Shown: positions 2,579-58,786 of the stretch, piece after piece
How positions within the stretch are numbered: the stretch's first letter is position 1
Layout of the letters: each line of letters opens with the position of its first letter
From: a virus
Reading direction: 5' to 3' (one strand)
IMG/VR virus record: IMGVR_UViG_3300037225_001188
Location: 1-64,000 of that record
Length of the DNA: 64,000 nucleotides
Program-made: the position numbers and the translations under genes
The notes under the pieces: generated by a model
Told to the model about the DNA's origin: nothing
The model's input: the letters and a program-made list of their open reading frames with translations, nothing else
Databases searched by the model: none

Positions 2579-4078
2579 ATGCTCCGCCTCGAGTTGGATA
2601 GCCTCTACCTGAACCTCCGCGAGGCCAACAGCGAAGTCTTGAAGGTCATCGACCAGGTGACTAGCTACGCTATCGAGGGGGCGTGGTTCTCGTCGGCGTT
2701 CAGGAACAAGACGTGGGACGGGCGACAGCATCTACTCTCGTTCTCGCGCGCCAACGGGTACCGCGTCTACGGCGGGTGCGCGGCCGACGTCGTGGCCGCG
2801 CTGCGCAACGAGCACGTCCCGTTCGAGTACGTCGACCTGAGGAAGGTCCCGGAGCCGACCTGCGACCACGGCTGGACCGGCCTCATCTGCGACCAGAAGG
2901 GGAAGCTCGTCGAGTTCCAGCCGCGCGACTACCAGGTGGCGGCCGCCCGCGCCGTCCTCACCGAGACGCTCCCGCTCGGCCGCGGCATGCTCAAGCTCCC
3001 CATCCGCAGCGGGAAGACCTGCGTCGGAGCGCTCATCATCGCAGCGCTGCAGGTGCCGGCCATCTTCATCGTCACCAACGACCTGCTGCTCCAGCAGACC
3101 GTGAGGTTGTACGAGAGCATGTTCTCGTCCAGGGTCGGGGTCATCGGCGCCGGGCGCTGGGACCCGACCGACCTCACGGTCGCCACCGTGCAGACGCTGC
3201 ACTCGCGGGTCGACCAGCCGGAGTTCAAGCAGCTGATGGAGCGCGCGGACCTGGTGGTCTTCGATGAAGTCCACCACCTACAAGGTAGTACAAAAGCACA
3301 CACCGCGCCACAAGGCGCGAAGCCGAAGGCGAAGAAGGCCTCGGGCGGGTGGAAGGACATCGCGCTTCGCTGCAACGCCTACTACAAGATCGGCCTCAGC
3401 GCGACCATCTACATCGACGTCGCCAAGGCGGCGGAGAAGTCCGCCATCTGGCTCAAGGCGGCCACCGGGAGCATCGCCTACGAGGTCACGACCAAGCGCA
3501 TGATCGAGGAGGGGTGGCTGCTGCGCCCGATCGTCGAGATGCACCGGGTGGTCGGGCCGCAGATCCAGGGTGACTGGGCGGAGGACGAGGTCTACCGGCG
3601 CGGGGTCGTCAACTACGCCAGGCGCAACCAGCTCATCCTGGGGCTCACCATGGACGAGGTGGCGCTCGGGGGGCGCATCATGGTGCACGCGCACCACCAC
3701 GAGCACATCGACGCGCTGCACGAGATGTTGGAGGGGGCCGGCGCGAAGGTGGAGAAGCTCAGCGGGAAGGTCCACGGGCAGGAGCGGAAGGAGGTCATGG
3801 TCCGCTTCCGCCGCGGGAAGACCCAGGTCCTGGTCGGCAACATCTTCGGCGAGGGCCTGGACGTCCCCGAGGTCGACGTGGTGGTGAACGCGGAGGGCGG
3901 GGAATCGAGAAAGAGATCGATACAAAGACTTAGGAACCTTACACCGTCTCCAGGAAAAAAATACGTCAAGGTGATCGACTTCCTCGACGAGCACGAGGCG
4001 CACCTCGCGAAGCACGCTCGGGCCCGGCTCAAGGCCTACCGTGCCGAGGACGCCTTCGACGTACGGGTAGTGGGGTAG
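2579..4078 (+). CDS. SF2 DNA helicase, UvsW-like
   Basis: 499 aa. An N-terminal domain of about 110 residues precedes the helicase core, as in T4 UvsW. Motif I reads LPIRSGKT rather than GxGKT; motif II is VVFDEVHHL (DEVH); motif III is LSATI; motif VI lies in the QRLRNLTPSPGKKY segment. UvsW-type helicases unwind branched intermediates and R-loops and help move origin-dependent to recombination-dependent replication. The gene sits just upstream of the presumed origin. Two stretches (3272-3312 after motif II and 3902-3970 over motif VI) use AT-rich codons unlike the rest of the gene. Helicase identity is well supported; the UvsW subgroup is inferred from domain order. Confidence 0.8.
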   Translation: MLRLELDSLYLNLREANSEVLKVIDQVTSYAIEGAWFSSAFRNKTWDGRQHLLSFSRANGYRVYGGCAADVVAALRNEHVPFEYVDLRKVPEPTCDHGWTGLICDQKGKLVEFQPRDYQVAAARAVLTETLPLGRGMLKLPIRSGKTCVGALIIAALQVPAIFIVTNDLLLQQTVRLYESMFSSRVGVIGAGRWDPTDLTVATVQTLHSRVDQPEFKQLMERADLVVFDEVHHLQGSTKAHTAPQGAKPKAKKASGGWKDIALRCNAYYKIGLSATIYIDVAKAAEKSAIWLKAATGSIAYEVTTKRMIEEGWLLRPIVEMHRVVGPQIQGDWAEDEVYRRGVVNYARRNQLILGLTMDEVALGGRIMVHAHHHEHIDALHEMLEGAGAKVEKLSGKVHGQERKEVMVRFRRGKTQVLVGNIFGEGLDVPEVDVVVNAEGGESRKRSIQRLRNLTPSPGKKYVKVIDFLDEHEAHLAKHARARLKAYRAEDAFDVRVVG

Positions 4079-4199
4079 GGCGGCCTTAGATGCCGACGGC
4101 GGTGCGATTTCTCTTGACGCTCTGGGAGAGCTGTGAGAATGTCGAAAACGTCGCGAAGGCTTGAAGGGCTGAACGCGACGATGTAAAGGAATTGGGAAC

Positions 4200-4310
4200 A
4201 ACGCCTCCGTGCTGATGATGATGGGCCGGGGACGCCGGAACGGGTTTTTCCCTGTTCCTACCGTTCCCGGCACCTTCACCCCGACCCATCATCATCAATT
4301 CGGAGGCGTT
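4200..4310 (+). promoter_or_regulatory. Long inverted repeat that sequesters the initiator gene's ribosome-binding site
   Basis: AACGCCTCCG (4200-4209) is the exact complement of CGGAGGCGTT (4301-4310), and TGATGATGATGGG (4213-4225) of CCCATCATCATCA (4285-4297). They are separated by a 3-nt mismatch and enclose an inner GCCGG/CCGGC stem. The right arm contains GGAGG at 4302-4306, the only plausible ribosome-binding site for the TTG start at 4312. Folding of the transcript would therefore mask translation initiation of the replication initiator. The rest of 4079-4199 holds no gene I can support. Confidence 0.7.
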
Positions 4311-4311
4311 C

Positions 4312-5616
4312 TTGCGTCAAGCCGAACAATCATCATCAACTCCTCGTCGTTACATCGATCCCTACAAGAAGTACGTCGGCGTTCATATCCCGAACTGGCT
4401 GGTATGCAGAACCGAGATCAGCCACGGGGCGAAGATCGTCTGGGGTAGGTTGGCCCAGTTTGCCGGTAAGAACAAAACAGCTTTCCCATACATCAGTACT
4501 CTATCGAAAGAGGTTGGTTTAGGAGAACGTCAGACGAGAGCGTGTCTCAATGAGTTAGTAAAGTTCGATTTAATCGAAGGAACAGATAGACGCGCTGAGT
4601 CAAAGTCCACCGTGTATAAGTTCCTCGACCATCCTTGGTCACACGAAGACGACTACGATGACGCTGCCGGACCCTCCGGCGGAATCCTGCCGGACCCTCC
4701 GGCGGAAGACGAAGAAGGTGATCGAATCGAACAGAATCCTGCCGGACCCTCCGGCGGAATCCTGCCGGACCCTCCGGCGGAATCCTGCCGGACCCTCCGG
4801 CGGAATCCTGCCGGGGTATATAATGAAGTAAGAGAATCAGAGAAGAGAATCATAGTAAGTTCCGCTTCGCCTTCGGCTCAAGCGGCTACCTCGAAGGCGA
4901 AGCCGGCTGGGAAGAAGAAAAGCTCAAAGCCTCAACTCGAAGGGCTCATCGTCCCAGGAGCCGAAGGCCTGAAGAACGAGTACTTCAGGAAGCGCAACCT
5001 GGCAGGCTGCAGGCATACCTCGAAGATGGAGAGAGACGGCCTGGTCCACTTCGAGAAGTGCGTCGCGATGTGCGAAGAGGTGAGTGTCCAGCCGACGAAG
5101 TTCCTCGAGTATCTCATCCAGGAGTTCCCCAAGTTCGCTAAGGGGCAGAAGTTCGTCCCTACCAGCTTGCTCGTCAGTGACTCAATGCTGAATCAGTTCT
5201 TGGCTTACGATCCGAAGTCAGCCCCATCCAGCAGCTCCGCCCATCCCTCCGTCGCGCTCGAGAAGAACCACGAGGACTACCCGGCCGAGCTTGCCAGCCG
5301 CTTCCTCTCGGCCGGTCTCTCGCTACCAGAGAAGAAGAGCAGTATCGGGCGCATCGTCAACGACGCGAAGAACCGGGCCGCCGAGCTGCCGCACACCCAG
5401 GGGCTTCCGTGGGGCCGTCACGTCCACGCCTGCCTCTGCGCCGCCTACGACAACCCGGACGGGCTGCGGGCGTGGATCGTCCGCGACGTTGATCTCATCC
5501 AGGAGCAGTGGCAGGACGTCGTCAGCACCGCGCTCCGGCTCGTTGAGGAGGACGGCGATAGGTTCTCGGTCTGGGAACCGCTCTTCCAGATCTACCAGGA
5601 GGTAGGCGCCAAATGA
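4312..5616 (+). CDS. Replication initiator, lambda O-like organisation
   Basis: 434 aa from TTG at 4312, chosen because GGAGG lies 5 nt upstream and no other in-frame start precedes the domain. Residues about 12-105 look like a winged helix (AFPYISTLSKEVGLGERQTR as the HTH). Residues about 117-170 are low complexity because they are encoded by 23-bp DNA iterons read in three frames. A Lys/Ser linker and a helical C-terminal domain follow, with no ATPase motif. N-terminal origin-binding domain, iterons inside the gene, then a helicase-recruiting C-terminus is the plan of lambda gene O. The DnaC-like loader and DnaB-like helicase genes follow. The first 330 bp are clearly richer in AT than neighbours. 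Confidence 0.65.
   Translation: MRQAEQSSSTPRRYIDPYKKYVGVHIPNWLVCRTEISHGAKIVWGRLAQFAGKNKTAFPYISTLSKEVGLGERQTRACLNELVKFDLIEGTDRRAESKSTVYKFLDHPWSHEDDYDDAAGPSGGILPDPPAEDEEGDRIEQNPAGPSGGILPDPPAESCRTLRRNPAGVYNEVRESEKRIIVSSASPSAQAATSKAKPAGKKKSSKPQLEGLIVPGAEGLKNEYFRKRNLAGCRHTSKMERDGLVHFEKCVAMCEEVSVQPTKFLEYLIQEFPKFAKGQKFVPTSLLVSDSMLNQFLAYDPKSAPSSSSAHPSVALEKNHEDYPAELASRFLSAGLSLPEKKSSIGRIVNDAKNRAAELPHTQGLPWGRHVHACLCAAYDNPDGLRAWIVRDVDLIQEQWQDVVSTALRLVEEDGDRFSVWEPLFQIYQEVGAK
4667..4816 (+). repeat. Origin iterons: five 23-bp repeats plus a half site
   Basis: The dyad CCGGACCCTCCGG recurs at 4667-4679, 4690-4702, 4742-4754, 4765-4777 and 4788-4800, with a half copy CCGG at 4811. Spacing is exactly 23 bp within the groups of two and three, with a 52-bp step between them. 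Each dyad sits in the unit ATCCTG-CCGGACCCTCCGG-CGGA. Because 23 is not a multiple of 3, the same DNA is translated as GPSGGIL, PDPPAE and SCRTLRRN, so selection is on the DNA and not on the peptide. Initiator-binding sites of a replication origin are the simplest reading. Confidence 0.8.
4815..4862 (+). other. AT-rich, purine-rich stretch next to the iterons (candidate unwinding element)
   Basis: Directly after the half iteron the sequence changes from about 70% GC to a run of TATATAATG, AAGTAAGAGAATC and AGAGAAGAGAATC. An AT-rich element flanking iterons is where the duplex opens in lambda-type origins. Assignment is by position and composition only. Confidence 0.5.
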
Positions 5617-5903
5617 CTGCCCAGCAGATCGTCCTGCTGTTCAACCTCTACGACTACTCCCTGTCGCAGCACCCCGACGTTGCGGCGCAGCAGGCCAACC
5701 TGAAGGTCCAGCCACCGTGCCAGCGCGTCGCCTGGGATCACGCGCTCTGGATGTGCCGCGAGGCCACCACGTTCGTGGTCGAGGGTCGCCTCGACAAGGC
5801 CGAGCGCTGGCTCGGTTTCGTCCAGGGCGCGCTGTGGATCCTCGGGGTTTTCTCGATCGACGAGATGCGCGAGCACGTCCGCTCCATGTCGGTGCCGGTT
5901 TGA
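5613..5903 (+). CDS. Hypothetical protein, 96 aa
   Basis: Its ATG overlaps the initiator stop (ATGA) and its own stop overlaps the TTG of the loader gene. The product is a small helical protein with no motif I recognise (WDHALWMCREATTFVVEG in the middle). The placement between initiator and helicase loader suggests a replication accessory role, but this is guilt by association. Confidence 0.7.
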   Translation: MTAQQIVLLFNLYDYSLSQHPDVAAQQANLKVQPPCQRVAWDHALWMCREATTFVVEGRLDKAERWLGFVQGALWILGVFSIDEMREHVRSMSVPV

Positions 5904-6619
5904 TCCCGCGGGCGCGCGACCACCAGGCGCAGCTCGAGGCCTGGTTCGCCAAGGCGGCCGCGGAGGCGAAGAAGGGCTGCGAGGACTGCGGCGGCAAGGG
6001 CTACGTCGTCAAGCTCGACGCCGTGTTCATGCAGCCGAGTTCCAGCCGCTGCGAGTGCATGAAGCGGGCGAACCACGAGTTCGCGATGCGGCGCGGTAAC
6101 GTCCCGTCGGAGTACCGGAAGCTCGGCGGGATGTCGGTGCTCGCGCCCGTCGCCGACTTCATTGCCAAGCTCGACGACGCCGAGGCCAGGCGCGGTCTTC
6201 TCCTCGTCGGCTCCTACGGCAGCGGGAAGACGACGGCTGCCTGCCAGGTGCTCAGCCAGGCTGCGGGACTTGGGCGGAGCATCTTCCGCGTCGAGGCCAC
6301 CGAGGTTGAACGCGCCCTCTCGCTCATCAAGAGCCGCCAGGACTGGGTCGACCAGTGGTTACAGGACGGGATGTACTCCGACGTGGTCGCGGTCGACGAG
6401 CTGGGGGCCGAAGCGGTCGCCGGCACGAACGGCCGCGAGGCGCGCTCGCTGATCTCCTACTTCGTCAAGCACCGCGTCGAGAACGGCATGCCGACGGTCG
6501 TGTGCACGAACCTGGAGCAGGATGACTTCGTCCACCACTACGGCGAGGCCACCGCGTCGGTGGTCTTCGGCCACCGCTACACCGTCGCTACGGTCGGCGA
6601 GCAGGACTTCCGTCGGTGA
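5900..6619 (+). CDS. DnaC-like helicase-loader ATPase
   Basis: 239 aa from TTG at 5900, overlapping the upstream stop as TTGA; the longer upstream frame only shadows the preceding gene. An N-terminal CxxCxGKG zinc-ribbon-like segment is followed by CEC, then an AAA+ core: Walker A GSYGSGKTT, Walker B DVVAVDELGAE, sensor-like VVCTNLE. DnaC/DnaI-type loaders deliver the replicative helicase to the initiator-opened origin. The gene is flanked by the initiator and the DnaB-like helicase, which fits. IstB-type transposition ATPases share the fold, but the context argues for a loader. Confidence 0.8.
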   Translation: MIPRARDHQAQLEAWFAKAAAEAKKGCEDCGGKGYVVKLDAVFMQPSSSRCECMKRANHEFAMRRGNVPSEYRKLGGMSVLAPVADFIAKLDDAEARRGLLLVGSYGSGKTTAACQVLSQAAGLGRSIFRVEATEVERALSLIKSRQDWVDQWLQDGMYSDVVAVDELGAEAVAGTNGREARSLISYFVKHRVENGMPTVVCTNLEQDDFVHHYGEATASVVFGHRYTVATVGEQDFRR

Positions 6620-7995
6620 GCACGACGGCCCGCCTGGAGAAGCAGGTCTTGTTTCGGGCGCTCGTAGAGCCCGCCTTCCGGGCCAAGGCCAGGGGCCCGC
6701 TCGAGAAGGGCGGCTGCTTCGGCGACCCGGCGCTCGCGTGGGTCTGGCGCACTGCGCTCACCCTCCCAGCCGACGAGCCGATCTCCCGCACCGCGCTCAT
6801 GGCGCTGGTCGAGCTGGCGTGGAGGGAGCAGCCGGAGAAGGAGGAGCTGCACGTCACGATGGTCGACCAGGTCTTCGAGCAGGCCGGCGCCAACCTCGCC
6901 AGCATGGCGAGTGTCGAGGCGCTCAACCAGCTCGTCGCCCACGCGCGGCTCGAGAAGGCCGTCGTCGAGGCCGGGACGCTCCTCGACAAGGGCGACGTCG
7001 AGGGGGCGCAGAAGTGCATCGCGGCCATCCAGAAGCAGGGGCTCGGCCAGGGCCGCGTCCGCCGCGTCGACTACGCCGAGTCGGTCCCCGAGCGTCTCGC
7101 GGCGATGCGGGCGCAGGACGGGCCGTCCTACACGTACATCCCGACCGGCATCCCGGGGATCGACAAGTACATCGACGGGGTGCGCCTCAGCGAGCTGCTG
7201 CTCATCGTGGCGACTACGGGCATGGGCAAGTCGATCATGGCGATGTGCCTCGCGGCCGCGTCGGCGATGCCCGACCCGCGCCGCGCCCGGCACCCGGACG
7301 GGTTCGTCACCGCCGTGTTCGCCACCGAGATGCTCATCGAGCAGGTGGCGATGCGCTTCGACGCGCACTTCGCCGGGCTGGAGCATCGCAAGTTCAAGAC
7401 GTGGGGCTTCAGCAGCGAGGAGGAGGATCGGCTCGCCGAGACGTTCGCGGTCAAGATGGAGCAGCTTCGCGGGAAGCTGTTCCTCTTCGACACGCCGATC
7501 CGCGAGTGCAAGCTCGAGGTCGTCGAGCACGCGGTCATGGACCTGGAGGACGAGCTGGGGGTGGCGGTCGAGAACGTGGTCCTCGACTCCCCCGGGCAGT
7601 TCAAGCCGGAGCGCAAGTATGAGCAGAAGCGGCTCGAGGCCGCCGACGTGTTCTGGGACATCAAGGCGATGGCCCGCGGTGAGGGGCTCGTCAAGCACGT
7701 GATGGCGGTCGAGGCCACCGACCAGGCAGCGAAGGAGTACGAGCGCAAGATGGCCGGCTCAAGTGCCACCAGCGAGAGCTACGACAAGGCGCGCATCTGC
7801 GACCTCATGATTACAATGAACCAGGACGGGGTTCAAGAGATCAATGGAGAAATGATCTTGAACCTCGCGAAAGCAAGAGACAGTCAATCGCGTGCACAGG
7901 TGAAGGTTCGCACGATGTACAACGTCATGCGCTTCGAGGAGATCGGTGAGGTATTGCGCTCCGACCTTGTTAGCGACGAGACGAGAGGACGATGA
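6616..7995 (+). CDS. DnaB-like replicative helicase
   Basis: 459 aa, GTG start overlapping the loader stop (GTGA). The N-terminal third is helical, as in DnaB. The RecA-like core has Walker A ATTGMGKS, Walker B VVLDSPG and a conserved C-terminal stretch around CDLMITMNQD. The DnaB-type helicase travels 5'-3' on the lagging strand and recruits primase. The core shows MAVEATDQ where a typical DnaB has a Gln-Leu-Ser motif, so it is a diverged member. From about 7800 to 7915 the codons turn AT-rich (26 G/C in 7801-7860 by my count) over a conserved motif, unlike the rest of the gene. Confidence 0.8.
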   Translation: MSTTARLEKQVLFRALVEPAFRAKARGPLEKGGCFGDPALAWVWRTALTLPADEPISRTALMALVELAWREQPEKEELHVTMVDQVFEQAGANLASMASVEALNQLVAHARLEKAVVEAGTLLDKGDVEGAQKCIAAIQKQGLGQGRVRRVDYAESVPERLAAMRAQDGPSYTYIPTGIPGIDKYIDGVRLSELLLIVATTGMGKSIMAMCLAAASAMPDPRRARHPDGFVTAVFATEMLIEQVAMRFDAHFAGLEHRKFKTWGFSSEEEDRLAETFAVKMEQLRGKLFLFDTPIRECKLEVVEHAVMDLEDELGVAVENVVLDSPGQFKPERKYEQKRLEAADVFWDIKAMARGEGLVKHVMAVEATDQAAKEYERKMAGSSATSESYDKARICDLMITMNQDGVQEINGEMILNLAKARDSQSRAQVKVRTMYNVMRFEEIGEVLRSDLVSDETRGR

Positions 7996-8834
7996 TGAAA
8001 GCACTCTGTGAGAAGATCGAAGTCTACGGTTTCCGGCGTGCGCTCGAAGGGATGCGGAACCCGGAGGAGAGCTGGCGGAAGAGCGACTCGACCTACTGGG
8101 GCAGCAACCCGATGGTGGACGACGGGTCGTTCTCGATTTTCGCGCCAGAGCGTCCGCTGCTCGGCTCTGAGGATCTGCACCTCGCCTGCAAGCTCATCAC
8201 CGCCGGCAGCGACCACCGCAAGTTCTGCCGGCAGATAATGGTGTGGGTCGACTTCAACCTGCCGCGCTTCTTGTGGCAGGAGGCCGACACGTACAAGGTC
8301 GGCACCACGCGCGACTCCTGCTCGACGATGCACACCATCCACCGGCGCGATCTGGGAGCGGACGACTTCGTCGATGGCGACGTCGCCCAGGAGACGCTCG
8401 CCGACATCAACGCGCTCATCGCTGTCTACAAGGGCGACAAGAGCCCCGAGAACCTGCACCGGCTCAAGGCCCACATCACCGAGGGATTCCTCCAGCGGGC
8501 CACGTACACGATGTCGTACGAGACCTGCTTCAACATGTACTTCGCCCGGCGCAACCACCGGATGAAGGAGTGGAGCGGCCCCGACGGCATCTGCGCGATG
8601 ATCGCCCAGCTCCCGCTCATGTCCGTCTTCCTGCCGGCGTACGAGAAGCCGATGCTCGAAGCTGCGCAGAACAAGAAGCTGCTCGGGGACCTCATTTGCC
8701 TGCTCAGCCAGCAGGTCATCGGCGACGAGGGCGCGGTCGACACGCTGAAGCGAGTTATCGCCGAGCGCGACGCACTCGACAATCAAGTGAAGGCTGTCGG
8801 TAGCGCGCTTGAGCTTGAGGCGAACCGTGAGTGA
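7992..8834 (+). CDS. Conserved phage protein, possibly ThyX-related, 280 aa
   Basis: The start overlaps the helicase stop (ATGATGA). Visible motifs are YGFRRALEGMRNP near the N-terminus, FLWQEADTYKVGTTRDS with SCSTMH in the middle, and ARRNHRMKEW near the C-terminus. I recall this motif set from phage proteins sometimes annotated as thymidylate synthase complementing protein, but the classical ThyX signature RHRxxSxNxxSxR is not visible. A nucleotide-metabolism role would fit the dCMP deaminase elsewhere in the window. A structure-based comparison would be needed to decide. Confidence 0.35.
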   Translation: MMKALCEKIEVYGFRRALEGMRNPEESWRKSDSTYWGSNPMVDDGSFSIFAPERPLLGSEDLHLACKLITAGSDHRKFCRQIMVWVDFNLPRFLWQEADTYKVGTTRDSCSTMHTIHRRDLGADDFVDGDVAQETLADINALIAVYKGDKSPENLHRLKAHITEGFLQRATYTMSYETCFNMYFARRNHRMKEWSGPDGICAMIAQLPLMSVFLPAYEKPMLEAAQNKKLLGDLICLLSQQVIGDEGAVDTLKRVIAERDALDNQVKAVGSALELEANRE

Positions 8835-50502: not shown

Positions 50503-50871
50503 ATGCCAGCTTTGAAGAAGAGCGTACCAGAACCAGCCGGCAGAGCCAACGTCGAACCGCCGTGGCTCTTCTACTCGCTGCCGCTGGAGCGAGCCGGCCT
50601 GGACTCGATGTCCTTCCGCGTCTTGATCCACGTGTGGTCGCGCGCCAGGCACGAGAATGGCGTCGCCTACGAGGCCGTGCCGTCCATGGCGCGGGCCATG
50701 AAGATGAGCGAGCGCACGGTGCAACGAGCCCTGGAGTATCTCGTGTCGTGCTGCTTCCTGGAGATCGACGGCTCGCACAAGGGCGGTCGCGAGAACCCCA
50801 CCCGCTATGTCCCGCTGCCGCCAGATCGCTGGGTGGTTGGCGTGCCGCGAACGAGCGGGGAGCGAAAGTAA
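50503..50871 (+). CDS. Winged-helix initiator-like protein, 122 aa
   Basis: A plus-strand gene within the minus-strand block, with GGGAGGGACC before the ATG. LDSMSFRVLIHVWSRARHEN, VPSMARAMKMSERTVQRALE and FLEIDGSHKGG form a replication-initiator-type winged helix similar in layout to the N-terminal domain of the 4312 gene. There is no C-terminal domain. 22-bp iterons begin 10 bp after its stop. It could be a second initiator, a repressor of one, or the relic of an O-like gene truncated at its iterons. Confidence 0.65.
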   Translation: MPALKKSVPEPAGRANVEPPWLFYSLPLERAGLDSMSFRVLIHVWSRARHENGVAYEAVPSMARAMKMSERTVQRALEYLVSCCFLEIDGSHKGGRENPTRYVPLPPDRWVVGVPRTSGERK

Positions 50872-50880
50872 AGGGTGCAC

Positions 50881-50949
50881 GGGGGTCACCCTTTATCGGA
50901 ACGGGGGTCACCCTTTATCGGAACGGGGTCACCGCTAGGGGTGACCCCC
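50881..50949 (+). repeat. 22-bp iterons of a second origin-like locus
   Basis: GGGGGTCACCCTTTATCGGA starts at 50881 and 50903 (22-bp period). A third, partial copy GGGGTCACC is at 50925 and an inverted GGGGTGACCCCC at 50938. The core GGGTCACCC is a dyad. A purine-rich stretch (GAAGAGATACAGTAGAAGAG and on) follows to about 50995. The remainder to 51089 holds two small hairpins (near 51001 and 51031) and no gene. Confidence 0.75.
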
Positions 50950-52246: not shown

Positions 52247-53386
52247 ATGAAGTTGGTCGCGGTCGCGAAGCTGCTCCCCACCGACGAACAGGCGACGGCT
52301 CTGCTTGCCACCATGGAGCGCGTCAACGAAGCCTGCGAGTGGCTCGGGGCGCGTGCCTTCGAGGGGCAGACCGCTAACAAGTTCGCCCTTCACCATCTCC
52401 ACTACGGTGACCTCCGGGAGCAGTTCGGGTTGTCGGCCCAGATGGCAGTCAGGGCCATTGGCAAGGTCTGCGACGCCTACAAGCGCGACCGGACGCGGCA
52501 GCCCCACTTCAAGCCCCACGGCGCCATCGCCTACGACCAGCGCATCATGAGCTTCAAGGCCATGGACCGGGTATCGCTCCTGACGCTTGCCGGACGCATC
52601 CTCGTTCCGTTCGTCGCCGGGGCCTACCACCGCGCCCGGCTCGAAGGCGTCCGTGGTCAGGCCGACCTCGTGCTCCGCAAGGGAAAGTGGTACCTCTACG
52701 TGACCGTCGAAGTTCCCGACGGCGCACCAGTTGACCCCGAGGGATGGCTGGGCGTGGACCTCGGCATCCGCAACCTTGCCACCGACTCCGATGGCGAGCG
52801 GCACAGCGGGGCCGGCGTGGAGGCGGTGCGTCAGCGCATGCAGCAGCTCCGCACCGCGCTTCAGTCCGTCGGCACGAAGAGCGCCAAGCGCCACCTCAAG
52901 CGACTCGCGGGGCACGAGGCCCGCTTCCGTTCCGACGTGAACCACATCATCTCGAAGCGCATCGTTGCCAAGGCCAAAGACACCGCGCGCTGGGTCGCAG
53001 TCGAGGATCTGACCCACATTCGCGAGCGGACCACGGTTCGACACGGCCAACGGGCGATGCACTCCGGGTGGGCTTTCTTCCAGCTCCGGTCGTTCTTGAC
53101 GTACAAGGGCAGGCTCGCTGGCGTGCCGGTTGTCGCCGTCGACCCGCGCAACACCTCGCGCACCTGCCCCCGTTGCGGTCACGTCGACAAGCGCAACCGA
53201 CGCACGCAGGCTGAGTTCCGCTGCGTCGCTTGCGCCTTTGAGGCGCACGCCGATGTAGTGGGAGCGACCAACATTGCAGCACGGGCCGCCTTCAACCGGC
53301 CCATCGTCTCGAGTATTGGGAGTGAAACGCACCTTGCGATACCTCTCCTAGCTCAGGGGCAAGCCGCCAGCTTCAGCGGGCGGTAG
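52247..53386 (+). CDS. tnpB: TnpB RNA-guided nuclease
   Basis: 379 aa. RuvC-like catalytic blocks are GVDLGIRNLATDS (Asp), AVEDLTHIRER (Glu) and AHADVVGATNIAAR (Asp). The zinc finger is CPRCGH...CVAC. All residues are intact. TnpB is the ancestor of Cas12 and uses an RNA from the element's right end (here the hairpin at 53364-53383 overlapping the 3' end) to cut DNA matching the flank, which favours element retention. On a phage it could also act against competing DNA. Confidence 0.93.
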   Translation: MKLVAVAKLLPTDEQATALLATMERVNEACEWLGARAFEGQTANKFALHHLHYGDLREQFGLSAQMAVRAIGKVCDAYKRDRTRQPHFKPHGAIAYDQRIMSFKAMDRVSLLTLAGRILVPFVAGAYHRARLEGVRGQADLVLRKGKWYLYVTVEVPDGAPVDPEGWLGVDLGIRNLATDSDGERHSGAGVEAVRQRMQQLRTALQSVGTKSAKRHLKRLAGHEARFRSDVNHIISKRIVAKAKDTARWVAVEDLTHIRERTTVRHGQRAMHSGWAFFQLRSFLTYKGRLAGVPVVAVDPRNTSRTCPRCGHVDKRNRRTQAEFRCVACAFEAHADVVGATNIAARAAFNRPIVSSIGSETHLAIPLLAQGQAASFSGR

Positions 53387-58195: not shown

Positions 58196-58786
58196 CTACG
58201 CCTCCATCAGCAGTTGCGATAGGCACGCGAGGGCGGAATCCATGAATGCAGCCCTCGCCACAGCCCACGCCGCAGCCCCCGCCGCAGCCCCCGCCGCAGC
58301 CGACGCCGCAGCCCCCGCCGCATCCCACGCCGCAGCCCCCGCCGCAGCCCCCGCCGCAGCCCCCGCCGCAGCCCCCGCCGCATCCCACGCCGCATCCCAC
58401 GCCGCAGCCGACGCCGCATCCGACGCCGCATCCCACGCCGCAGCCCCCGCCGACGCCGCATCCCACGCCGCATCCGCCATCTCCTCTTGGCTCACGCTCT
58501 CCGGGTCCTCGACGCACCGCCGCACGACCGCGAGGCACTGCGCCACGCGCGGATCGGTGCTTAGGTGCGCAACCTGCTCCGCGCACCAGAGCGCGTACGC
58601 CCGCTGGGACCCCGGCCCTTCGTCGGACAGGACGTGCCAGAGCCACCACGAGTCTAGCCCCTCAGCGGCGAGGTCGAACAGCGTCTCCACCGTCGGCTCG
58701 CAGCCGGCGGGATAGAGGTTCTTGAAGGCGTCGCGCTGCCCCTCGCAGGCGCCGTGCTTCACGAGCAGGTCGTAGGTGATCTTCAT
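58196..58786 (-). CDS. Alanine/WDAA-repeat protein, 196 aa
   Basis: Residues 1-100 form a folded-looking domain (KITYDLLVKHGACEGQRDAF). Residues about 105-178 are AAWDAA and GAAA tetrapeptide-type repeats encoded by imperfect 12-bp units, then a short hydrophobic end. Such WDAA-repeat proteins occur in phages and bacteria; function unknown. Confidence 0.7.
   Translation of the reverse strand: MKITYDLLVKHGACEGQRDAFKNLYPAGCEPTVETLFDLAAEGLDSWWLWHVLSDEGPGSQRAYALWCAEQVAHLSTDPRVAQCLAVVRRCVEDPESVSQEEMADAAWDAASAGAAAWDAASDAASAAAWDAAWDAAGAAAGAAAGAAAGAAAWDAAGAAASAAAGAAAGAAAWAVARAAFMDSALACLSQLLMEA
58252..58470. repeat. Imperfect 12-bp tandem repeats inside the WDAA gene
   Basis: Units GCCGCAGCCCCC and GCCGCATCCCAC alternate many times over about 220 bp. 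The period is a multiple of 3, so the protein repeat is preserved. Replication slippage is likely to change its length. Confidence 0.85.

Follow-up and report, generated by a model that had tools for sequence, protein, structure and literature searches.

We analysed a window that spans bases 1-64000 of a virus record of 130,793 bp; the record is classed as linear and is without end repeats. Within this 64,000-bp window, a gene for a replication initiator contains an array of dyad repeats inside its own reading frame; the gene lies downstream of one for a phrog_16-type helicase (2579-4078) and is followed by genes for helicase loading. The features of the locus are:

4197-4313, + strand: leader inverted repeat with 35-nt arms that are 86% complementary (repeat search; RNA fold z = -7.2)
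4312-5616, + strand: initiator gene, 434 aa, with a TTG start after GGAGG (open frame, PHROG matches)
4411-4575, + strand: HTH_36 winged-helix domain, aa 34-88 (Pfam PF13730, 35.4 bits, cut-off 25)
4666-4680, + strand: iteron 1, GCCGGACCCTCCGGC (this and the next four by pattern search and repeat search)
4689-4703, + strand: iteron 2
4741-4755, + strand: iteron 3, beyond a 29-bp insert
4764-4778, + strand: iteron 4
4787-4801, + strand: iteron 5
4810-4814, + strand: half site GCCGG (sequence, repeat search)
4817-4866, no strand assigned: predicted unwinding element, rich in A+T and purines (lowest stability of any 50-bp window in the 130,793 bp)
4921-5616, + strand: C-terminal part of the initiator (no Pfam family above cut-off; GC3 0.84)
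5613-5903, + strand: 96-aa protein, phrog_7775, function not assigned (PHROG)
5900-6619, + strand: DnaC-like helicase loader (phrog_50, E 1e-18; phrog_3277; Pfam IstB-like)
6616-7995, + strand: DnaB-like replicative helicase (phrog_19, E 3e-38; DnaB_C, E 2e-13)

Dyads inside an initiator gene

The PHROG families matched by the initiator (270, 186, 391, 1032 and 8102) are all concerned with replication initiation or loading. Among these, phrog_391, annotated as "replication initiation O-like", aligns over aa 40-175 with an E-value of 1.1e-5, other initiator families scoring equally well or better. The Pfam search returned no dedicated phage O family, HTH_36 alone passing its cut-off, and at an E-value of 10 the only addition was a sub-threshold match to Arc_MA. 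Searches of the phage, viral and bacterial genomes of IMG/VR, INPHARED and GTDB found no close relatives of the protein, and nothing relevant was matched among solved structures; an AlphaFold model computed from the single sequence was discarded (mean pLDDT 37). We infer that the HTH_36 wing is the iteron-binding domain and that the C-terminal part is the one that recruits the loader and helicase.

Pattern and repeat searches recovered five exact copies of GCCGGACCCTCCGGC on the + strand, starting at 4666, 4689, 4741, 4764 and 4787. Each is a 15-bp dyad, GCCGGA-CCC-TCCGGC, so that every repeat by itself has the symmetry of a dimer site. The original prediction of five repeats and a half site between the winged-helix and C-terminal parts is thus borne out by five exact dyads and the GCCGG at 4810; the dyad that it gave as CCGGA-CCC-TCCGG is real, with arms of 6 bp and its first start at 4666, and the array is not a uniform 23-bp tandem. 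The spacings are 23, 52, 23 and 23 bp, with a further 23 bp to the half site, a 29-bp insert parting copies 2 and 3. With up to three mismatches allowed, the 18-mer pattern has five occurrences in the window, where 0.39 are expected, and none of 100 shuffles reached five. At one mismatch, the dyad pattern has no further copy in the whole 130,793-bp record, and a reversed control pattern has no copies there. The dyad pair pattern found no match in IMG/VR, and nine single exact 17-mers returned there by the iteron DNA patterns were taken as chance. Repeats of other kinds are also present in the record, namely 17 copies of the 12-bp unit GCAGCCCACGCC at 58248-58452 of the window and repeats with a 123-bp period at 90645-91456 of the record (L007 9645-10456), the latter within a gene on the - strand (90255-93161).

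Counted from the TTG at 4312, the dyads begin at offsets 354, 377, 429, 452 and 475 (half site 498), which places them in frames 0, 2, 0, 2 and 1 (half site 0). All three frames are used, as had been predicted and as a separate scan also indicates, and identical dyad DNA is translated as AGPSGGI, LPDPPAE and CRTLRRNP. Since the same DNA is read in three frames, selection or homogenisation acts on the DNA and not on the peptide, in line with the earlier view of the repeats as DNA sites. From the first dyad to the half site the array measures 144 bp, a multiple of 3 that is kept because the 29-bp insert brings the frame back; gaining or losing one 23-bp unit would disrupt the initiator frame. 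These facts bear on whether replication slippage within an unstructured linker might have expanded a minisatellite, or a palindromic element inserted there, that has no function as DNA. The copies are identical, 8-bp spacers included, which would fit recent duplication, and protein linkers tolerate repeats; yet a 23-bp unit breaks the frame unless compensated, and the array nonetheless keeps it. Moreover, DNA resembling an unwinding element adjoins the array and, as described below, other initiators hold unrelated repeats at the same slot, and we consider this explanation very improbable.

Surroundings of the array

When nearest-neighbour stability was computed over the whole record, 4817-4866 emerged as its least stable 50 bp; the most AT-rich 45-bp window of the record also begins at 4817, 3 bp beyond the half site, and the least stable 100 bp likewise fall within the initiator gene, at 4488. 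The AT- and purine-rich stretch predicted to follow the iterons therefore coincides with the extremes of the record both in AT content (45 bp) and in instability (50 bp). Easily melted A+T-rich DNA thus adjoins the array, as in a lambda-type origin, and the lambda control concurs. The DnaC-like loader and DnaB-like helicase genes that had been placed downstream were confirmed by both PHROGs and Pfam, giving an initiator-DnaC-DnaB loading cassette whose order is shared with relatives. Beyond the helicase come a primase and, at a greater distance, a PHP/polymerase pair; judged by this gene content, the phage appears to supply most of its own replisome. The interval 7992-8834 of the window codes for a 280-aa phrog_6721 protein with kin in Enterocloster and Clostridioides phages.

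Wing proteins are often repressors, and the dyads could be read as operators through which the wing protein autoregulates transcription of the replication operon, the origin itself lying elsewhere. Neither promoter nor skew evidence fixes the position of the origin, which leaves room for this reading: a sigma-70 scan gave no convincing promoter, the raw cumulative GC-skew minimum at 1968 is near the array and ambiguous as an origin marker, and strand-corrected skew at fourfold sites places no switch at the array, the fit preferring other breakpoints. Against it, the dyads lie about 350-500 nt into the gene and away from the promoter, they are next to the weakest DNA of the record, a loader and a helicase follow downstream, the matched families are initiators, and lambda O offers an exact precedent for an origin within a gene. 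We accordingly judge the operator explanation improbable.

Relative to its GC content, the leader inverted repeat of the initiator (4197-4313) is more strongly structured than anything else on either strand of the whole record. Its 3' arm covers the ribosome site GGAGG (about 4301-4305), which the predicted RNA form pairs, and extends to the start codon; the simplest guess is that the hairpin might act as a brake on translation of the initiator. A third, partly complementary copy at 4317-4351 is a possible alternative partner (duplex -21.7 versus -54.7 kcal/mol). Rfam returned nothing other than sub-threshold matches of vertebrate or snoRNA type.

The base composition of the gene is uneven. 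The wing part has a GC3 of 0.54, the lowest among 238 coding segments across the record, which average 0.91; that of the C-terminal part is 0.84, and those of the loader and helicase are 0.92-0.93. Based on this, we propose that the wing and the origin were probably acquired jointly from a lower-GC source, that is, as a graft. An alternative is that origin function itself needs AT-rich DNA; joint acquisition fits better because the low GC3 extends back across the wing domain.

Comparison with lambda and with other phages

The phage lambda origin, which lies inside the O gene, has four inverted-repeat iterons to which O dimers bind; beyond these comes an A+T-rich region of 40 bp, which is opened by O binding (PMC5043065). 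Some lambdoid phages carry two extra iterons, six in total, which add 13 residues to the protein, and the iteron number is tied to the reading frame (PMC7466680). The locus described here resembles that of lambda in having a wHTH initiator with mid-gene dyad iterons at about 20-24 bp (PMC5043065, PMC7466680), in the distance of the first iteron from the start of the gene (348 nt in lambda O, 354 nt here), in where the DNA near the origin is least stable over 50 bp (beginning 5 bp past the last iteron in lambda, 3 bp past the half site here) and in having helicase-loading genes downstream. It differs in that lambda has four iterons of 18-19 bp, whereas here there are five GC-rich 15-bp dyads and a half site; in its loader, which is a DnaC-like AAA+ protein and not of the lambda P type; in coding for its own DnaB, primase and DnaE-type polymerase; and in the Pfam profile of its initiator, limited to HTH_36. 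We hence describe the initiator as lambda-O-like by design, a label that does not establish membership of the lambda O family.

The same repeat scan was applied to 11 other phage wHTH initiators, with codon shuffles as the control. In seven of these, three or more repeats, falling into more than one frame, occur soon after the wing, against 1-2 in shuffles; the seven are lambda O, MT835699 and the initiators of Rhodococcus phage Tonitrus 63, Moraxella phage Mcat8, Edwardsiella phage EPP-1, Microbacterium phage Margaery 51 and Pseudomonas phage SC_8. In the last five the spacing is mostly 19-26 bp, and they differ from the present phage in that their repeat sequences are unrelated and their C-terminal parts distinct. 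The initiators of IME-SA4 and mosaic phi11 have repeats in frame only, that of Gingerbug has two copies, and that of Jenst has no repeats past the wing. With multi-frame repeats in seven of 11 initiators, the in-gene design is therefore both widespread and known.

To find uncultivated relatives, a terminase probe was used, which gave 70 related contigs; DnaB matches in eight of the 70 then led to syntenic replication loci, DnaB as a single-protein probe for relatives having found no match. Two further loci, L120 and L121, were added by means of a profile of the C-terminal part, and the comparison covers G008, G010, G011, G027, G029, G038, L120 and L121, with the G030 and G031 loci left out. 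An ORF at L114 3807-4877, probably spurious, was set aside. The relatives share the order helicase, wing, C-terminal part, DnaC-like loader and DnaB, and most have repeats between the wing and the C-terminal part, although the sequences of these repeats are unrelated to the dyads of our phage. Homology between the C-terminal part in the window and those of the relatives was not established (hhalign probability 2%), and the comparison therefore rests on gene order together with the wing, the repeats and the loader.

Across these loci, the reading frame either runs through the origin repeats or is split around them. In G011 the gene is fused through the repeats CCAAAGTTTA, four direct and two inverted; in L120 a fused 539-aa gene contains four copies of AGTCGGACTT at 22 bp; and in the near-identical pair G029 and G038 it is fused through 11 copies that are read in two frames (VTKEFP and SDERVS). 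In this pair, whose loci are L117 and L116, the repeats are 18 bp long and number 11 or more, mainly in-frame VTKEFP and then, in the second frame, SDERVS. Split forms are found in G008 and G010, where a wing gene of 111 aa and a distinct gene for the C-terminal part flank the repeats. The G008 slot is a weaker case, its four copies being reached by two of 100 shuffles and by none of 63 other segments, and G010 is weak, its three copies being reached by one of 100 shuffles but by seven of 67 other segments. Neither G027, which is split, nor L121, which is fused, shows clear repeats between the wing and the C-terminal part. In G011, G010 and G038, the 50 bp of lowest stability in the fetched locus are at most 300 bp away from the array; in G008 and L120 they are not within that distance. 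The occurrence of fused and split genes suggests how in-gene origins of the lambda type may arise, namely from an origin situated between two domains.

Taking the locus as a whole, we propose that it very probably contains, at 4.7 kb, a theta-type origin of replication built on the lambda O design. A lambda-O-like origin had been the original prediction, and it is supported by the presence of all the anatomical elements in the right order and at nearly lambda distances, as well as by the O-like family match and the unrelated repeats in the same slot of other phages. The N-terminal winged-helix domain would bind the five dyads as dimers, one to each dyad and about two helical turns apart, and the assembled initiator complex would melt the adjoining 4817-4866. 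The iterons themselves would encode the linker joining the wing to the C-terminal part, which would recruit the phage DnaC-like loader, and the loader in turn would place the phage DnaB-like helicase. Binding, dimers, melting, loading and the start of replication at the array are all inferred from the anatomy of the DNA.

A second module and the possible inheritance of the design

The record has only one other HTH_36 protein above the cut-off, a 122-aa protein encoded at 50503-50871. Right past its stop, GGGGTCACC occurs three times (50882, 50904 and 50925), with its reverse complement at 50940; this 9-mer or its complement is found at one further place in the whole record, 802. These repeats are followed by a purine-rich stretch that shares a 25-nt alignment with the one downstream of the first array (0.0035 for a random genome, 0.001 for shuffles). 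No C-terminal part follows the 122-aa wing gene in any frame, no loader or helicase lies beside it, and its melting DNA is weaker than that of the first module. The module stands alone on the + strand amid - strand genes and near an IS605 TnpB-type gene. That adjoining gene (52247-53386 of the window) is IS605 OrfB/TnpB-like, with a Cas12f1-like TNB domain. The module at 50503-50948 could represent a second cassette or a remnant; alternatively, it may be a cargo gene accompanied by its operators.

That just two proteins in the record pass the HTH_36 cut-off, each followed by repeats, and that the 25-nt purine-rich stretch is common to both raises the prospect of two origins, the one at 4.7 kb being real but secondary or alternative and 50503-50948 being the main or a stage-specific one. 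In light of the missing C-terminal part, loader and helicase, the isolated position of the second module on the + strand near the TnpB-type gene and its weaker melting DNA, we give this very little credence. More broadly, we tentatively raise an idea that we hold to be rather doubtful, in which a wing gene with its own iterons and melting DNA would be an inherited cassette that is swapped between phages and joined to the local C-terminal part, either fused or separate. On this view, the present phage would carry two of these cassettes, which differ in their iterons: a fused one of foreign composition at 4.3-4.9 kb, and one without a C-terminal part at 50.5-51.0 kb, maybe a second, conditional origin.

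The in-gene origin design was already known, and what our reading of the sequence would add to it is a comparison between fused and split genes, along with the probable graft and the second module. The origin proposed at 4.7 kb would be a sharply defined one for a large environmental phage with its own replisome, and the fused and split loci would make an old lambda curiosity testable across phages.
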